Assembly: GCA_026391945.1 (NCBI GenBank)
Contig: JAPLDA010000004.1
Span: 1 to 50,136, forward strand
DNA from: Bacteroidota bacterium
Lineage (GTDB): Bacteria > Bacteroidota > Bacteroidia > AKYH767-A > 2013-40CM-41-45
Direction: 5' to 3'
Length of the DNA stretch: 50,136 nt
A program made the position numbers and the translations under genes. Shown here piece by piece: positions 34,058-40,841 of this stretch; position 1 is the first letter of the stretch, and each line of letters opens with the position of its first letter. The notes beneath the pieces were generated by a model. That model had not been told where the DNA came from and ran no database searches. It was given only the letters and a program-made list of their open reading frames with translations.

Positions 34058-34543
34058 ATGTCGGAACCGATCAGCATTCCTTCTTTGGTAACAGAAAAAA
34101 AAGAAAAGTACGAATCCCTTCTTCCGCAGATTCATGCATTGGTGGAAGGAGAACGGGATCTCATTGCCAACCTCGCCAACATCATGTCGGCATTAAAGTA
34201 TGGCTTGAATTTTTTCTGGGTGGGAATTTACTTCGTGAAAAATGAAGAACTGGTTCTTGGGCCTTTCCAGGGACCGGTGGCATGTGTGCGCATCGGCTAT
34301 GGAAAAGGCGTTTGCGGAACCTGCTGGAAAAAAGCGGAAACGATTGTCGTTCCTGATGTAGATGCATTTCCCGGCCACATTGCCTGCAGCTCCGAATCAA
34401 AATCAGAAATCACCGTTCCTGTTTTTAAAAATGAAAAAGTGGTGGCTGTCATCGATGTTGACAGTCATATTCTAAATGATTTTGATTCAACGGACGCACA
34501 CTATCTTGAAAATATTTCCAAACTGATCGAAACACTTTTGTAA
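34058..34543 (+). CDS. msrC: Free methionine-R-sulfoxide reductase (GAF domain)
   Basis: Cytoplasmic GAF-fold enzyme that reduces free methionine-R-sulfoxide, part of oxidative repair. Three cysteines stand at C76, C86 and C110, with spacings of 10 and 24 that match the catalytic and resolving cysteines of the characterised fRMsr family; the motifs GKGVCGTCW and HIACSSESKSEI are the family signatures. 161 residues. The ATG at 34058 is chosen over a TTG one codon upstream. The stop overlaps the start of the next gene as TAATG. Confidence 0.93.
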   Translation: MSEPISIPSLVTEKKEKYESLLPQIHALVEGERDLIANLANIMSALKYGLNFFWVGIYFVKNEELVLGPFQGPVACVRIGYGKGVCGTCWKKAETIVVPDVDAFPGHIACSSESKSEITVPVFKNEKVVAVIDVDSHILNDFDSTDAHYLENISKLIETLL

Positions 34544-36162
34544 TGCAACCATTCCGGTACTTTTTAATTTTCTGCATTTCTGCCTTCATGGCTTCCTGCG
34601 CGCTACAGGTGGCTCCGCAGGGAGGAGAAAAAGATGTGAAGCCACCGAAGGTGACGAAATCCAAACCGGAAAATTTCTCCACGCAATTCGATTCGAAGAA
34701 AATTCAAATCACGTTTGATGAATACATTCAACTGAAAGACCTCAACAACCAATTGATCGTTTCTCCGCCGCTTTCGAAAAATCCCGATGCGAAAATAAAA
34801 CAGAAAACGTTGACGGTTCAACTGGACGATACCTTGCTGCCGAATACAACCTACACACTGAATTTTGGAAACTCCATTGTGGATAACAATGAAGGCAACA
34901 TACTGGAGGGCTATCAATATGTTTTTTCGACAGGAGAAATCGTCGACTCACTGAAGATTTCCGGCATAGTGGAAAATGCTTTGGATAAAAAAACGGAGAA
35001 GGGAATCCTGGTGATGCTTTACAAAAGCGAGGATGATTCCTGTCCGCTGAAAAAACGTCCAGACTATTTTGCCAAGACCAACGACAAGGGAGAATTCCGC
35101 ATCACCAACATTGCTCCCGGAAAATATAAAATCTTCGCGCTGAAAGAATCCGATGGTGATTACATTTACTCGGGCCCGGAAGAAAAGGTGGCCTTCCTTG
35201 ATAAGCCCGTTGCCGCTGATTCTTCGAATGTAATGCTCCGTTTGTTCAGTGAAAAACCAAAGCAGCGGATTTTAAGATGTTATTCCGAAGAGCCCGGGAA
35301 AGCGGTGGTTGCATTTGCGCAGCCGGCTCCAGGCATTTCATATCGCTTCATGAGTGATTCCATAAAATGCAATCTTGCTTTCACTGAATCATCGCGAAAA
35401 AAAGATACGCTGATTTTTTGGTACAGGAATACAAATTTAGATTCATTGATTCTTTTTTTTAAGGATAACAAAACCATTCACGATACCGTTACCATTCGCC
35501 TCTTCAAAACAGATGGTAAAACATTTTCGAAAAAGAAAAATTTGTTAAGCCTGGCTCCGAATTGTCAAAGCGGTGGATTTCTTGATCTCAACAAAAATCT
35601 GGAAATCCGTTTCAGTCACCCGGTTTCGGAATCTGATTTTTCAAAAGTAACTCTGAAAGAAGACTCCGTAACACTTGCTGATCTTCCTATTTCTTTTTCT
35701 GATTCGCTGAAAAAAAATCTTGTGATCAGGCATGCATGGAAAGAAAAAACGCCGTACCACCTTTTTATTCCGCCGGGAACATTCGGCGATATTTTAAATT
35801 TGAAAAACGATACGCTGCTTCGTGATTTCCAGACACGGCAGGCAACGGATTACGGAACGCTTACTGCCAAAATAAAAATCACTTCGCCTGGAACGCAATA
35901 CATCGTGATGCTGATCGATGACAAGGAAACCGTTTACCGGAGTTCGGTCATCCATGGCGATACGATACTGAGTTACGATTTTCTCGATCCGAAAGCATAT
36001 CGCCTGAAGGTGGTGGAAGACCTCAACGGGAACGGCGAATGGGACACGGGGAATTACCTTCAGAAAATTCAGCCGGAGCCTGTTGCCTATTACCCGGAAA
36101 CGCTCACCATCCGTTCCAACTGGGATGTGGATGTGAGTTGGAATGTGGAGATGAGTAGATGA
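34543..36162 (+). CDS. Ig-like (SbsA-type) domain lipoprotein
   Basis: 539-residue predicted lipoprotein; function unknown. Seen: signal and lipobox MASC (Cys19 or so), then PQGGEKDVKPPKV, an SbsA Ig-like domain (about 30-125, ITFDEYIQLKD...TYTLNFGNSIVDN), a carboxypeptidase-regulatory-like beta domain (about 140-225, NDKGEFRITNIAPGKYKIFAL) and a long C-terminal region with the calcium-like DLNGNGEWDTG. The family is common in Bacteroidota and often found near surface or T9SS genes. It starts on the stop codon of the fRMsr gene, so translation is coupled. Confidence 0.85.
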   Translation: MQPFRYFLIFCISAFMASCALQVAPQGGEKDVKPPKVTKSKPENFSTQFDSKKIQITFDEYIQLKDLNNQLIVSPPLSKNPDAKIKQKTLTVQLDDTLLPNTTYTLNFGNSIVDNNEGNILEGYQYVFSTGEIVDSLKISGIVENALDKKTEKGILVMLYKSEDDSCPLKKRPDYFAKTNDKGEFRITNIAPGKYKIFALKESDGDYIYSGPEEKVAFLDKPVAADSSNVMLRLFSEKPKQRILRCYSEEPGKAVVAFAQPAPGISYRFMSDSIKCNLAFTESSRKKDTLIFWYRNTNLDSLILFFKDNKTIHDTVTIRLFKTDGKTFSKKKNLLSLAPNCQSGGFLDLNKNLEIRFSHPVSESDFSKVTLKEDSVTLADLPISFSDSLKKNLVIRHAWKEKTPYHLFIPPGTFGDILNLKNDTLLRDFQTRQATDYGTLTAKIKITSPGTQYIVMLIDDKETVYRSSVIHGDTILSYDFLDPKAYRLKVVEDLNGNGEWDTGNYLQKIQPEPVAYYPETLTIRSNWDVDVSWNVEMSR

Positions 36163-36297
36163 GTGGATGTGCCAATTGATATGGCCGGATTATCCATCTT
36201 TCAATATTCAATCATTCTGACCACGGGCGATGAGACGATTTCGGATTCATGCCCGGAGATACGAAAACGCAATTCGTGATGGCGTGAACAGGTTGTG

Positions 36298-36349
36298 AAT
36301 AGGCGGTTTCCGGCGCCTATTGACTTCTTAGAATTTTTTCTTATCTTTC
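36298..36349 (+). promoter_or_regulatory. Hairpin and near-consensus promoter for the hemerythrin gene
   Basis: AATAGGCG (36298-36305), eight bases, CGCCTATT (36314-36321) is a perfect 8-bp stem that overlaps the TTG (36320-36322) of a promoter; TATCTTTC (36342-36349) follows after 19 bases, one base off TAnnTTTG. The palindrome covering -33 could be an operator. The 205-base gap 36163-36367 holds nothing else. Confidence 0.45.
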
Positions 36350-36367
36350 GTTTCAAATCCGAAAAGT

Positions 36368-36805
36368 GTGAACCGTCACCAGTCACTCATTTCTTTTTCC
36401 AGGGAGCATCACACCGCTTTACTTCTTGCCATGGTGTTAAAAAAGGACGGCCCGGTTTACAAAGGAATGCCGGTGAAGATCCCTGACAAGGTGGAGTACC
36501 TCAAGGCGAAATACCATACCGAGTTAAAGAAACATTTTTCAGAAGAAGAAAATATTTTATTCCCTTTTCTCACGGGCAAGAACAACATCATCGACGAGCT
36601 GATTGACGACCTCATCAAAGACCACAACAAACTGGAAGAGAACGTAGCCATGCTTGATTCTCACACCGACTCCGAAAAACTTTTAGACGACATCGCACGG
36701 CTGCTCGAATGCCACATCCGCAAAGAAGAGCGTGTGCTTTTCCAGAAAATCCAGGAAGTGCTGAGCGAAGAAGAGTTGAATGAATTAGAGAAGTTGTTGA
36801 GGTGA
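36368..36805 (+). CDS. Hemerythrin HHE domain protein
   Basis: Predicted di-iron four-helix protein, 145 residues, cytoplasmic, binding O2 or NO. Candidate ligands stand in the expected pattern: H14 or H15, H56-x3-E60 (HFSEEE), H86, and H116-x3-E120 (HIRKEER). The start is GTG. In other organisms HHE proteins relate to oxygen sensing, NO or iron-sulfur repair. The neighbouring cytochrome pair is 362 bases downstream, so a shared operon is not shown. The gap 36806-37167 contains a repeat copy (36882-36960), an AGGGAA/TTCCCT palindrome at 36851-36863, and the operator-like direct repeat at 37004-37023. Confidence 0.9.
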   Translation: MNRHQSLISFSREHHTALLLAMVLKKDGPVYKGMPVKIPDKVEYLKAKYHTELKKHFSEEENILFPFLTGKNNIIDELIDDLIKDHNKLEENVAMLDSHTDSEKLLDDIARLLECHIRKEERVLFQKIQEVLSEEELNELEKLLR

Positions 36806-36881
36806 AGAAAATTGAAAAACACTCATTAGTTACTTACAAAAACAAACAATAGGGAATTTCCCTGCCGTTCAAATATTTCAA

Positions 36882-36960
36882 GCAGGGTTGCGATTCGTTT
36901 CAAGATACCGCTCCGAGACCTCTGCTCCCCTGCGGCCTCTGCGTGAAATTTAATTACGCC
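36882..36960 (+). repeat. GC-rich intergenic repeat, copy A
   Basis: 79 bases beginning GCAGGG and ending with the block CCTCTGCGTGAAATT then AAT and CGCC. Copy B at 38794-38867 matches it over the last 51 bases in 42 positions. The two copies flank the cytochrome pair in the same orientation. Confidence 0.65.
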
Positions 36961-37003
36961 TCGCTGATCTTACTCTCTATTCATCCCATGAGACCATTGA
37001 ATA

Positions 37004-37023
37004 ATTCGTTAACCATTCGTTAA
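37004..37023 (+). promoter_or_regulatory. Tandem ATTCGTTAA boxes upstream of the cytochrome b gene
   Basis: ATTCGTTAA occurs at 37004-37012 and 37015-37023, an 11-base period, one helical turn. It lies about 145 bases before the ATG at 37168. The spacing suits a dimeric regulator on one DNA face. No full -33/-7 pair was found nearby; TATTTTTA near 37129 is the best -7 candidate. Confidence 0.35.
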
Positions 37024-37167
37024 ATCTTTTCGATCGCTACGAATGCTGATTTTGATCATATTAATTGAAAATGGGTTTCTACACTTTTGAATCTATAATC
37101 GTTTCCGGATATCGTTTTCTTTCTCAAATATTTTTATTTCCGGAATGGTCAGCATTTACAACCATCC

Positions 37168-37740
37168 ATGAAACAACCGTTATTCACGAAATATGTTTTG
37201 CCATTTATCCAGTGGTATGTGCTGATGATTTTTCTCGCCATTGCCATTGATTATTTTCTTCACCGGCTACATCTCGTTGCTGTGGGCCGTTATCTTGGCT
37301 TCACCGGGACGTTGGTCATCGTGGTTTCATTTGTTTACTCGCTCCGGAAATATAAAGTGATCGAATCCGGTTCTCCGAAAAAACTTTTGTTGCTTCACGA
37401 ATACCTTGCCTGGGCGGGCTCCGTCATGATTCTTGTTCATGCCGGCATCCATTTCAACGCCATCTTACCCTGGCTTGGCATCCTGATGTTGCTGATTGCT
37501 GTTGCCAGCGGACTGATCGGAAAATTTCTTTTGAAGGATGCCAGCGAAGCATTGAAAAACCGAAAACAGGAATTAATCAATTCAGGGATTGACAAAGAAG
37601 AAGCAGACAAAAAACTTTTCTTTGATACGATCACCGTTGACCTGATGAAAAAGTGGCGGGTCGTTCATTTGCCGATTACATTATTGTTGGGACTGCTGAC
37701 ATTGATTCACATCATCACCATCGTTATGTTCACGAAATGA
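37168..37740 (+). CDS. Predicted diheme b-type membrane cytochrome
   Basis: 190-residue inner-membrane protein with about five hydrophobic helices (roughly 10-30, 43-60, 76-97, 99-122, 163-187). Histidines fall in two transmembrane pairs with identical spacing: H77-x13-H91 and H167-x13-H181, the pattern of stacked bis-His heme b in cytochrome b and ferric-reductase-like proteins. H95 is also near. A charged loop of about 40 residues (ALKNRKQELINSGIDKEEADK) separates the last two helices. I know no named family with certainty. The stop overlaps the ATG of the decaheme gene (ATGA), so the pair is probably made together. Confidence 0.8.
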   Translation: MKQPLFTKYVLPFIQWYVLMIFLAIAIDYFLHRLHLVAVGRYLGFTGTLVIVVSFVYSLRKYKVIESGSPKKLLLLHEYLAWAGSVMILVHAGIHFNAILPWLGILMLLIAVASGLIGKFLLKDASEALKNRKQELINSGIDKEEADKKLFFDTITVDLMKKWRVVHLPITLLLGLLTLIHIITIVMFTK

Positions 37741-38618
37741 AAAAAACCATTGCCTGGGGAATTGCTGCGGTTTGTATCTGGATGATGATTCAGTTTCCTC
37801 ATGCTATGCTTAACCCCGGAGAACTGGTAAAAGGGCATCAGGACCTGAATCAAAAATGCCTTGCCTGTCACAATCCTTTTTGGGGAATCGCAACAGACAA
37901 ATGCATTGCCTGCCATACGCTTTCTGAAATCGGCAAAGACACGATTGATTTTAAAGACTCCCTTTCAAAAAGGAATAAAATTTTATTTCATCAGAATCTA
38001 AGCAATACCGAATGCACACTGTGTCATACCGATCACAAGGGAATAAAACCGGATGTCTCGCTGAGTAATTTCTCACACGACCTGTTGTCCGGCGGCGATG
38101 CATCCAAATGCAACAGTTGCCACCCGTCGCCTTCCGATAATCTTCATAAGCAGGTATCCGCTTCCTGCAACAATTGTCACAATACCAAAGGATGGAAATC
38201 TTCTGTGATTTTTAATCATGACATGATACAAGGTACAGATACAAACAATTGTTCGGCCTGTCATCAAAAGCCAAATGACTCCTATCATAATGCTTTAAAA
38301 GACAACTGTAATAAATGCCACGGCACTGACAAATGGATTCCGTCGACCTTCGATCACTCATCTTGTTTTCAACTCGATCAAAACCACAATGCCACATGTG
38401 TTACCTGCCATACCAATAATAATTTCAGCGCTTACACATGTTACGGTTGCCATGAACATTCAGAAAATAATACAGCTGGCAAACACATTGAGCATGGCAT
38501 TGGAAATTTCAGCAACTGTGTTTCCTGTCACAAGAGCGGTAATGAACACGACATGGAAGGACGTGAAAATTCAAAGGGCGAACATGGTGATAAAAAAGAG
38601 CATGAAGGAGATGATTAA
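37737..38618 (+). CDS. Decaheme c-type cytochrome
   Basis: 293-residue exported or membrane-anchored protein. An N-terminal hydrophobic segment (about 4-24) acts as signal or anchor. Ten CxxCH heme-binding motifs are counted: residues 41-45, 56-60, 93-97, 125-129, 144-148, 172-176, 191-195, 221-225, 235-239 and 261-265, with further histidines available as distal ligands. The C-terminus (about 266-293) is strongly charged and His-rich. The layout recalls cytochrome c3/c7 and doubled-CxxCH proteins. The ATG at 37737 gives a normal signal; a longer frame gives none. With the diheme b protein it could carry electrons across the membrane into the periplasm. Confidence 0.9.
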   Translation: MKKTIAWGIAAVCIWMMIQFPHAMLNPGELVKGHQDLNQKCLACHNPFWGIATDKCIACHTLSEIGKDTIDFKDSLSKRNKILFHQNLSNTECTLCHTDHKGIKPDVSLSNFSHDLLSGGDASKCNSCHPSPSDNLHKQVSASCNNCHNTKGWKSSVIFNHDMIQGTDTNNCSACHQKPNDSYHNALKDNCNKCHGTDKWIPSTFDHSSCFQLDQNHNATCVTCHTNNNFSAYTCYGCHEHSENNTAGKHIEHGIGNFSNCVSCHKSGNEHDMEGRENSKGEHGDKKEHEGDD

Positions 38619-38642
38619 TTCCATTTTTTCGGCGGGCATTTG

Positions 38643-38680
38643 TTTCACGCAGGGAACGCTGAGAAACAGAGAGCGCAGAG
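38643..38680 (-). repeat. GC-rich intergenic repeat, half copy C
   Basis: TTTCACGCA, G, GGAA, then GCTGA matches the left arm of copy B (TTTCACGCA at 38762), and GCGCAGAG resembles the reversed right arm. It lies just after the decaheme stop. Confidence 0.5.
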
Positions 38681-38760
38681 AAGAGTTGAGTGATATTTTT
38701 GTGGGCTCTGCTTAAAATTTAATCGTGTCAGGTTAATTCTACACAAGTCCCCATGCTAAT

Positions 38761-38867
38761 ATTTCACGCATGGAATGCTGAATACCGGAGGTCGCAGGGA
38801 TTCGATTCATGATATTGCTCTGCGTCCTCCGCTCCTCTGCGCCCTCTGCGTGAAATTGAATATCGCC
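38761..38867 (+). repeat. GC-rich intergenic repeat, copy B with terminal inverted ends
   Basis: The unit starts ATTTCACGCA (38761-38770) and TGCGTGAAAT (38847-38856) is its exact reverse complement. The part from 38794 to 38867 is the counterpart of copy A. CTCTGCGCCCTCTGCGT is typical of a class of imperfect intergenic repeats found in many genomes. The gap 38619-38895 has no gene. Confidence 0.65.
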
Positions 38868-38895
38868 AGGAAAAATAATTCCGATTATAAAAAAG

Positions 38896-39678
38896 TTACA
38901 CCAGCCTGAACTCATCCGCATCATCGGCAAACGCAAATGTTTTTCGAAAATCAATCAAGGCTTGTTTGTTCAGAACAATGGTTTCCATGGATTCTTCACC
39001 GGGCTTTGTTTGGCTGAGCCGTTCTCCTTTGAAATCAATCACAGAAGAATAACCGGAATGATAAATATTATTACCATCGTTACCGATCCTGTTCACCCCG
39101 GCTACATAACTTTGGTTTTCAATCGCGCGCGCCACAAGCAATTGCTTCCATGCATGAACCCGGCGATCCGGCCAGTTGGCAACGTAGATGAGCAAGTCAT
39201 AATCTTCCTGCTTCGTTCGCCTGCTCCACACAGGAAAACGAAGATCGTAACAGATCAGCGGACAAATCTTCCACCCGTTTATTTCAGCAATCATTTTTTT
39301 ATTTCCGGGTGAATATGTTTCCTGTTCATCAGCGAGACGGAACAAATGCCGTTTGTCATAACAATCAAATGTTCCATCCGGTTTCATCCAGATGAGGCGG
39401 TTGAAAAACCTTCCATCTTCGGAAATAATTACACTCCCTGTCAGCACACATTTTTTTTCAATTGCTTTTTTGCGGAGCCACTCTACCGTTTTCCCGTTCA
39501 TCATTTCAGCACACCCTTTCGCATTCATCGTAAATCCCGTGCTGAACATTTCAGGAAGGATCACGAGATCGGTTCCTTCGGCTACGGATGCCAGCTTCTT
39601 TGAAAATATTTCCAGGTTTGCATCTGTGTCTTCCCAAAAAAGTTCTGATTGTATGATGGTGATGGTAAGGTCTGTCAT
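38896..39678 (-). CDS. Omega-amidase-type nitrilase family protein
   Basis: Carbon-nitrogen hydrolase, 260 residues, with the catalytic triad E43 (LPEMF), K109 (YDKRHLF) and C143 (ICYDLRFP). The motif arrangement and length fit the YafV/omega-amidase subgroup, which hydrolyses alpha-ketoglutaramate or alpha-ketosuccinamate. ATG at 39678 is chosen: it is two bases after the transaminase stop, whereas the longer frame adds unrelated residues overlapping that gene. Genomic pairing with the transaminase supports the glutamine transaminase/omega-amidase pathway (inference). Confidence 0.88.
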   Translation of the reverse strand: MTDLTITIIQSELFWEDTDANLEIFSKKLASVAEGTDLVILPEMFSTGFTMNAKGCAEMMNGKTVEWLRKKAIEKKCVLTGSVIISEDGRFFNRLIWMKPDGTFDCYDKRHLFRLADEQETYSPGNKKMIAEINGWKICPLICYDLRFPVWSRRTKQEDYDLLIYVANWPDRRVHAWKQLLVARAIENQSYVAGVNRIGNDGNNIYHSGYSSVIDFKGERLSQTKPGEESMETIVLNKQALIDFRKTFAFADDADEFRLV

Positions 39679-39680
39679 GA

Positions 39681-40841
39681 TTACGAAATTTTCATCAAAC
39701 GTTCCGCTGCCATCTCCAGCGTCTCTTCTGTTTTGGCAAAACAAAACCTCAGCAGTTTCTGATCAATGCCTTCATGGTAGAAAACAGAAATTGGTATGGA
39801 AGCCACTCCAAATTCTTTGGTCAACCGTTTTGCAAACTCCGTATCTTTTTCATTCGTGATGGCGCTGTAATCAAGCAACTGGAAATAAGAACCCGATGCA
39901 GGCTTCCATTTGAACTTCGAACCGCTGATCTGCCTGATAAAAAAATCGCGCTTCGCCTGGTAAAACTCCGAAAGGCCCTCATACATTTCTTTCTTCTTCA
40001 TGTAATCCGCCAGTGCATACTGAATCGGCGTGTTGGCACAGAACACCATGAACTGGTGAACCTTCCTGAACTCGGCTGAAAGATTCGTAGGAGCCAAACA
40101 ATATCCCATCTTCCACCCGGTGGTGTGGTACGTTTTACCGAATGAAAAAATGACAAAACTTCTTTCCGCTAGTTTCGGGTAACGGCAAACGCTTTCATGT
40201 TTCAACCCGTCGAAAATAATATGCTCATACACTTCATCGCTTAAAATAATAATTCCTGTTCCGGAAGTAATTTTCTCCAGTTGTTTCATGTCATTCTCGG
40301 TAAGTACCGAGCCGGTCGGGTTTTGCGGAGTGTTGATCATGATCATCTTCGTGCGGCCGGTGACTACTTTTTTCACCGCTTCCCAATCGATGTTGTAATC
40401 GGGAGCTTTGAGCTGAACGAATACAGGAATTCCTCCGCAGAGTTCAATGGCGGGAACATAACAGTCGTACGCCGGTTCCACCACAATCACTTCATCGCCT
40501 TCACGGATCACCGAAGCAATGGCCGTAAAAATGGCTTGTGTGCCTCCGCTGGTAATGGTGATTTCCGAATCGGGATGATACGAAGTTCCATAGAGGCTCT
40601 CCATTTTTTCAGCAATGATTTCTCTTAATGGAAGAATGCCCTGCATCGGTGCATACTGGTTCATTCCTTTTTTCATATAGAGATTTACCAGCGAAATTAA
40701 TTCGGGCGAAGTTTCAAAATTCGGAAAGCCCTGTGATAAATTAATTGCTTTGTGTTCGTTGGCAAGCGCCGACATGATTGTAAAAATCGTGGTACCGGCT
40801 TTGGGAAGTTTTGAAATGATGTTTTGGGGAAAGGTCGGCAT
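39681..40841 (-). CDS. Class I/II aminotransferase, methionine/glutamine type
   Basis: PLP enzyme of 386 residues in the kynurenine/glutamine transaminase (YbdL-like) group. Visible: LSQGFPNF, QYAPMQG, NTPQNPTG (substrate/PLP Asn174), SDEVYEH (D202) and the Schiff-base lysine K236 in SFGKTYHTTGWK. These enzymes transfer the amino group of glutamine to the keto acid of methionine or aromatic amino acids; the next gene product would remove the amide from the product. The terminator at 40879-40909 separates it from the phosphorelay genes upstream. Confidence 0.9.
   Translation of the reverse strand: MPTFPQNIISKLPKAGTTIFTIMSALANEHKAINLSQGFPNFETSPELISLVNLYMKKGMNQYAPMQGILPLREIIAEKMESLYGTSYHPDSEITITSGGTQAIFTAIASVIREGDEVIVVEPAYDCYVPAIELCGGIPVFVQLKAPDYNIDWEAVKKVVTGRTKMIMINTPQNPTGSVLTENDMKQLEKITSGTGIIILSDEVYEHIIFDGLKHESVCRYPKLAERSFVIFSFGKTYHTTGWKMGYCLAPTNLSAEFRKVHQFMVFCANTPIQYALADYMKKKEMYEGLSEFYQAKRDFFIRQISGSKFKWKPASGSYFQLLDYSAITNEKDTEFAKRLTKEFGVASIPISVFYHEGIDQKLLRFCFAKTEETLEMAAERLMKIS

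Follow-up and report, generated by a model that had tools for sequence, protein, structure and literature searches.

The window, by which we mean the whole analysed stretch of 50,136 nucleotides, contains two overlapping genes, here called A and B, whose products probably form a two-subunit transmembrane electron conduit leading from a diheme cytochrome b to an anchored multiheme cytochrome c. The direction that we moderately favour is outward, from the cytoplasmic side to the periplasm. The conduit is backed by sequence motifs and their invariance, by a near-obligate pairing of the two genes with start/stop coupling, by variation of the cytochrome in two-heme units and by the FNR gene that accompanies the pair in Proteobacteria. 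From the sequences we infer heme ligation, complex formation, direction, donor and acceptor. The redox pair A-B is widespread and conserved; many Chlorobiaceae have it, and it is also found in Bacteroidota and in Proteobacteria of the iron and sulfur cycles.

Gene pair and its conservation

ORF A (37168-37740, forward strand) encodes a five-TM inner-membrane protein of 190 amino acids, a predicted diheme cytochrome b. ORF B (37737-38618, forward strand) encodes a decaheme c-type cytochrome of the class III / c7-like kind, with 293 amino acids when counted from the ATGA start; a mechanical list of open reading frames begins it 28 codons earlier, at a GTG. Stop and start codons overlap in this ATGA (37737-37740, forward strand), an arrangement of translational coupling. 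The initial annotation had reported a 190-residue membrane protein with H77-x13-H91 and H167-x13-H181, overlapping by ATGA a protein with ten CxxCH motifs, and both histidine pairs, the overlap and the ten motifs were found again when the sequence was re-read. The annotation had also described the pair as a minimal path from membrane to periplasm, and this is supported, as are the diheme-b layout of A and its coupling to a multiheme c.

A scan covering 84,980 genomes of bacteria and archaea returned 247 relatives of A, 80 of which were fetched. This number of relatives rules out an isolated, unique pairing. The two-gene coupling also held in other genomes: a multiheme c gene follows A in 80/80 testable loci, a set that leaves out one contig ending inside A, and the exact four-nucleotide overlap is kept in 66 of the 80. 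A lies upstream of the cytochrome gene at every locus. The module was seen in Bacteroidota, Ignavibacteria, Chlorobiaceae, SAR324 and the alpha-, beta- and gammaproteobacteria. Within the phylum, 97 of 395 sampled genomes matched, 71 of them belonging to a single family; the FMO protein gene was present in all five genomes of this family that were tested, which identifies it as Chlorobiaceae.

A hemerythrin-domain protein is encoded just upstream (36368-36805, forward strand). It belongs to the conserved flanking synteny and is also encoded in relatives that lack A-B here, and we therefore place it outside the module. Apart from this hemerythrin, no extra redox gene adjoins the pair in the window.

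Membrane protein A

A sequence scan found exactly two HX13H pairs in A, H77/H91 and H167/H181. Hydropathy gave five TM segments, centred near residues 18, 45, 82, 108 and 179, and comparison with the motif positions puts the pairs on TM3 and TM5. The loop at 59-72 is positively charged, which fits an N-in, C-out topology. In this five-helix topology TM3 and TM5 would be parallel to each other, which makes H77-H167 and H91-H181 the likely heme pairs; as ligands of heme b, H77/H167 would lie near the cytoplasm and H91/H181 near the periplasm. TM4 carries S114-G-L-I-G118 and TM5 carries W163-x3-H167-x13-H181. All 81 relatives have H32, H77, H91, H95 and H167, and 80 of them also have H181, the remaining one having a gap there. 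Two of these residues, H32 and H95, are predicted to lie at the periplasmic face, and a plain two-heme model leaves their invariance in 81/81 relatives unexplained.

The A of the window matched none of the Pfam and NCBIfam models. Its relatives gave weak matches to the cytochrome b561 profile (32/76, best 3.6e-6) and to DUF4405 (PF14358; 34/76, best 3.4e-4, below the Pfam cut-off), for which the window protein had no match at E 1. Two of the 76 matched Ferric_reduct / FRD (PF01794; best E 0.0029), and here again the window protein gave no match. Heme b binding has been shown for a DUF4405 protein (PMC11334425). An AlphaFold2 model built from 76 aligned A proteins was mediocre (pLDDT 83, pTM 0.61), and its comparison with solved structures (Foldseek, VIA-align) returned generic helical-bundle matches and no significant cytochrome; b6f and b561 chains were listed at a non-significant E of 3.7-9.6. 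A search of PDB sequences with the A profile found nothing. The diheme-b layout proposed earlier for A is supported by the motif, by its invariance and by a weak profile likeness to the cytochrome b561, DUF4405 and FRD families.

Multiheme cytochrome B

The B of the window, with its ten CxxCH motifs, matches the Cytochrom_CIII, c3_2, C7, Paired_CXXCH and Mtr-type models. It has no match to the NapC-type cytochrome domain of the NapC/NrfH/CymA quinol dehydrogenases, and no named NCBIfam equivalog scored above its cut-off. DmsE, HmcA and OmcA/MtrC-type enzymes were considered and rejected, their scores falling far under the NCBIfam cut-offs.

The N-terminal hydrophobic stretch of B runs directly into a conserved (Y/F)PHxMxxPGxL, followed by the invariant H34; among aligned relatives P27-G28 is invariant and P21 and M24 are near-invariant. 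A hydrophobic stretch abutting such a conserved motif suggests a membrane anchor that stays in place and not a signal peptide, and the helix thus appears to be uncleaved. The heme number across the set is 8, 10, 12 or more (10 or 18 in the Chlorobiaceae copies that were read), and the length variants arise by insertion of two-heme repeat units. Proteins of the Cytochrom_C_asm family, which act in c-type maturation, are encoded in the genome of the window.

In the conduit that we propose, A would have five helices with its N terminus inside, and two b hemes, held between TM3 and TM5, would be stacked across the bilayer. B, anchored beside it through the uncleaved N-terminal helix, would receive electrons from the outer b heme of A, and its c hemes would relay them to a partner in the periplasm.

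Insertion site and flanking repeats

The pair lies between two copies of a 69-nucleotide repeat in the same orientation, the left one at 36892-36960 and the right one at 38799-38867 (both on the forward strand, 81% identical), and two weaker, inverted copies are found in the right flank (38643-38680 and 38761-38797, reverse strand). The repeat core CCTCTGCGTGAAAT, with up to one mismatch, was found 27 times, spread over 16 contigs and in either orientation, and its reversed control not once. Copies often cluster in twos or more over a few hundred bases, and some are inverted. With 27 sites across the genome, the repeats form a dispersed intergenic family that is no signature of A-B, and the two flanking copies are probably outside the module. 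The initial annotation had read them as consistent with a discrete insertion; their presence and orientation are confirmed and they are ruled out as proof of insertion, and it is the synteny of related genomes that speaks for a lineage-specific arrival.

Six relatives from the same family (L158-L163) were compared with window positions 34543-39744. In these, genes for a Big_5 lipoprotein and a nitrilase flank a deiminase-type gene where the window has A-B; in the two relatives that were scanned, the deiminase is a PAD_porph protein and bears a type IX sorting tail. Most of the six also have a hemerythrin gene and a beta-lactamase-like gene alongside the deiminase, which is then found between hemerythrin and nitrilase. 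Between lipoprotein and nitrilase the window has the hemerythrin, A and B, and the deiminase gene is absent there. The only family relative with the pair, G010, carries it at another location. These two observations suggest that the pair was gained here in the lineage of the window, or that it replaced the deiminase, and gene order thus supports a lineage-specific swap at this site.

Electron donor and direction of flow

A is immediately preceded by an FNR/2Fe-2S flavoprotein gene in 30/30 proteobacterial loci and in 0/50 others, a few of the 50 having short upstream flanks. The proteobacterial flavoprotein has a hydrophobic segment at its N terminus, an NAD-binding domain and, at the C terminus, a 2Fe-2S domain; an FAD-binding domain was found in one of the two that were scanned. 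Hence in Proteobacteria the donor would probably be NAD(P)H, acting through the FNR protein. In the genome of the window, estimated to be 100% complete, neither NAD_binding_1 (PF00175) nor FAD_binding_6 (PF00970) had a match, while control genomes and several relatives were positive. An FNR-type donor is thereby rejected for this organism, where other flavoproteins are possible. The NAD(P)H route via an FNR-type protein fits Proteobacteria and does not fit the window organism; given the missing protein, the donor there would more likely be menaquinol, another cytosolic flavoprotein or ferredoxin.

These results bear on a quinone-linked reading of the pair, which differs from the conduit model in the donor. 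A would exchange electrons with the menaquinone pool, and A-B would be a quinol:multiheme-c oxidoreductase or, if reversed, a periplasmic quinone reductase. We consider this quite possible, although somewhat short of an even chance. The lack of an FNR-type protein in the genome of the window and of an FNR gene beside A in the 50 non-proteobacterial loci is in its favour, as is the canonical cytochrome b561 gene that immediately precedes A in L013 and L019. He et al. 2017 (PMC5566968) liken the inner-membrane proteins (IMPs) of the PCC3 and PCC4 clusters to cytochrome b and FRD; their preferred reading is a cytochrome b that acts on quinone, and they propose a role as inward-feeding quinone reductase. 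However, the FNR gene of all 30 proteobacterial loci points to a cytosolic partner, and a second, independent pointer is that a homologous IMP of about 290 amino acids adjoins a different flavoprotein, of the 4Fe-4S/Pyr_redox type. The missing FNR gene in Bacteroidota counts against a settled donor, and a flow from periplasm to quinone is a possible alternative direction.

If a conduit fed from NAD(P)H is correct, A-B would be a multiheme counterpart of the ferric reductases and NOX and would give electrons a defined point of entry into the periplasm. The FNR-containing operon of Proteobacteria makes the donor question directly testable. A broader and more speculative version, to which we would give only about one chance in four, is a conduit with exchangeable donors: a single diheme-b/multiheme-c core would be placed on FNR/2Fe-2S, on 4Fe-4S/Pyr_redox in the longer relative, or on quinol or another donor in Bacteroidota; H32/H95 would form a third redox site, on the periplasmic side, and the c hemes would be extended in two-heme units.

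Neighbouring genes and the electron acceptor

Other genes preceding A in some loci encode DUF2231, rubrerythrin and VIT1-ferritin proteins, and elsewhere the gene of a cation-diffusion-facilitator transporter comes after A. Together with the b561 and cation-diffusion-facilitator neighbours, we take these as functional leads only. A cation-diffusion-facilitator gene adjoins the module in L111, L115, L056, L079 and L080, which come from Chlorobiaceae, another family of the Bacteroidota phylum and Proteobacteria, and a metal link of the module is a possible lead. In the Chlorobiaceae locus L112, where B has 18 hemes, A is immediately preceded by genes for a DUF4405 cytochrome and for a response regulator/histidine kinase pair.

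Such neighbours could indicate a metal or stress reductase, delivering electrons to periplasmic metals or to diiron/peroxide defence in the manner of a split ferric reductase. Cation-diffusion-facilitator genes (Chlorobiaceae L111, the L115 cluster and several Rhodocyclaceae) and the recurrent ferritin-like/VIT1 fusions, rubrerythrins and copper-type P-type ATPases nearby would agree with this, and HX13H on TM3 and TM5 is also the FRD layout. We nevertheless consider this role unlikely: the neighbours are mixed, each being found in a minority of loci, and those of the window itself are general synteny genes.

No outer-membrane porin was identified among the genes adjacent to the pair, which makes a periplasmic acceptor likelier than extracellular transfer, and we would expect B to deliver its electrons within the periplasm. 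The alternative, in which A-B would admit electrons at the inner membrane to a porin-cytochrome conduit for extracellular electron transfer, draws on the homology of A to the PCC3-type IMP and on L115 and L046, where the pair adjoins a large cluster that includes cytochromes of 20 and of 30-34 hemes. Within the flanks of the 80 fetched loci, however, such a cluster is found only in L046, and none is near the pair of the window; He et al. thought the porin-less version unlikely to act in extracellular electron transfer (PMC5566968). We regard this role as distinctly improbable for A-B.

Comparison with known systems

The initial annotation knew of no named module with this pairing. This is literally right, but the pairing itself was described in 2017 from Fe(II)-oxidiser genomes, including those of Chlorobium ferrooxidans and Leptothrix cholodnii, where an unassigned "Other multiheme cytochrome c" lies beside a shorter, conserved five-helix IMP with two HX13H, which resembles the PCC3 protein in type (PMC5566968). 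These clusters mostly hold another redox protein and are usually without a porin. In the literature on Chlorobium multiheme cytochromes, we found no description of the A-B pair. A-B fits the class of He et al. in the features tested, matched by description only: a five-TM IMP with HX13H on TM3 and TM5, an adjacent unassigned multiheme c of varying heme number, mostly no porin, and example organisms akin to lineages with A-B. It differs in two respects. The IMP of that class is stated to be downstream of the cytochrome gene, whereas A is always upstream, and the class often has another redox gene, which the pair in the window does not.

According to He et al., most short IMPs have no significant homology to the PCC3/PCC4 IMPs, which are five-helix proteins marked by WX3HX13H on TM3 and TM5 and by SGXXG on TM4 (PMC5566968). 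What is added here to the known pairing is profile evidence supporting homology of A to such a protein. The A profile finds proteins of about 290 amino acids with the PCC3 signature (hmmsearch, E to 1e-16), called PCC3-like from motif and neighbours and not by name, and a profile-profile comparison with A gave an hhalign probability of 98.5% (E 1.5e-15) over residues ~38-124. A shares with the PCC3 IMP the HX13H on TM3 and TM5, the SGXXG on TM4 and the W-x3-H on TM5. The PCC3 protein is longer (~290-300 against 190 amino acids) and has WX3HX13H on both helices, whereas A has it on TM5 only, with L73 on TM3; PCC3 clusters, unlike A-B, also include a porin and large cytochromes of the periplasm and the cell exterior. 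In L115 (G273), L046 and L122-L135, all in genomes of the Bacteroidota phylum, an approximately 290-residue protein of the five-TM type, with HX13H pairs and SGVIG/SGVVG, is encoded beside 20-heme and further multiheme cytochromes. The PCC3-like clusters of L115 and L046 adjoin a short A-B pair and contain the 4Fe-4S/Pyr_redox flavoprotein, these being the two clusters whose proteins were scanned.

The DUF4405 (PF14358) cytochromes resemble A as small multi-TM heme-b proteins of extracytosolic electron transfer, but have been described with flavinylated proteins and not with multiheme c (PMC11334425). FRD / NOX proteins (PF01794) share with A the two HX13H pairs on TM3 and TM5, and the proteobacterial A adjoins an FNR-type reductase gene; there is no significant sequence match between them and A, and the electrons of A would pass on to a multiheme c. 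Ferric reductases and NOX usually have their reductase domain fused to the membrane part. CbcL and similar diheme-b/multiheme-c cytochromes of Geobacter likewise bring b hemes and multiheme c together at the inner membrane. CbcL is one fused polypeptide with the c part first, whereas A-B consists of two polypeptides.
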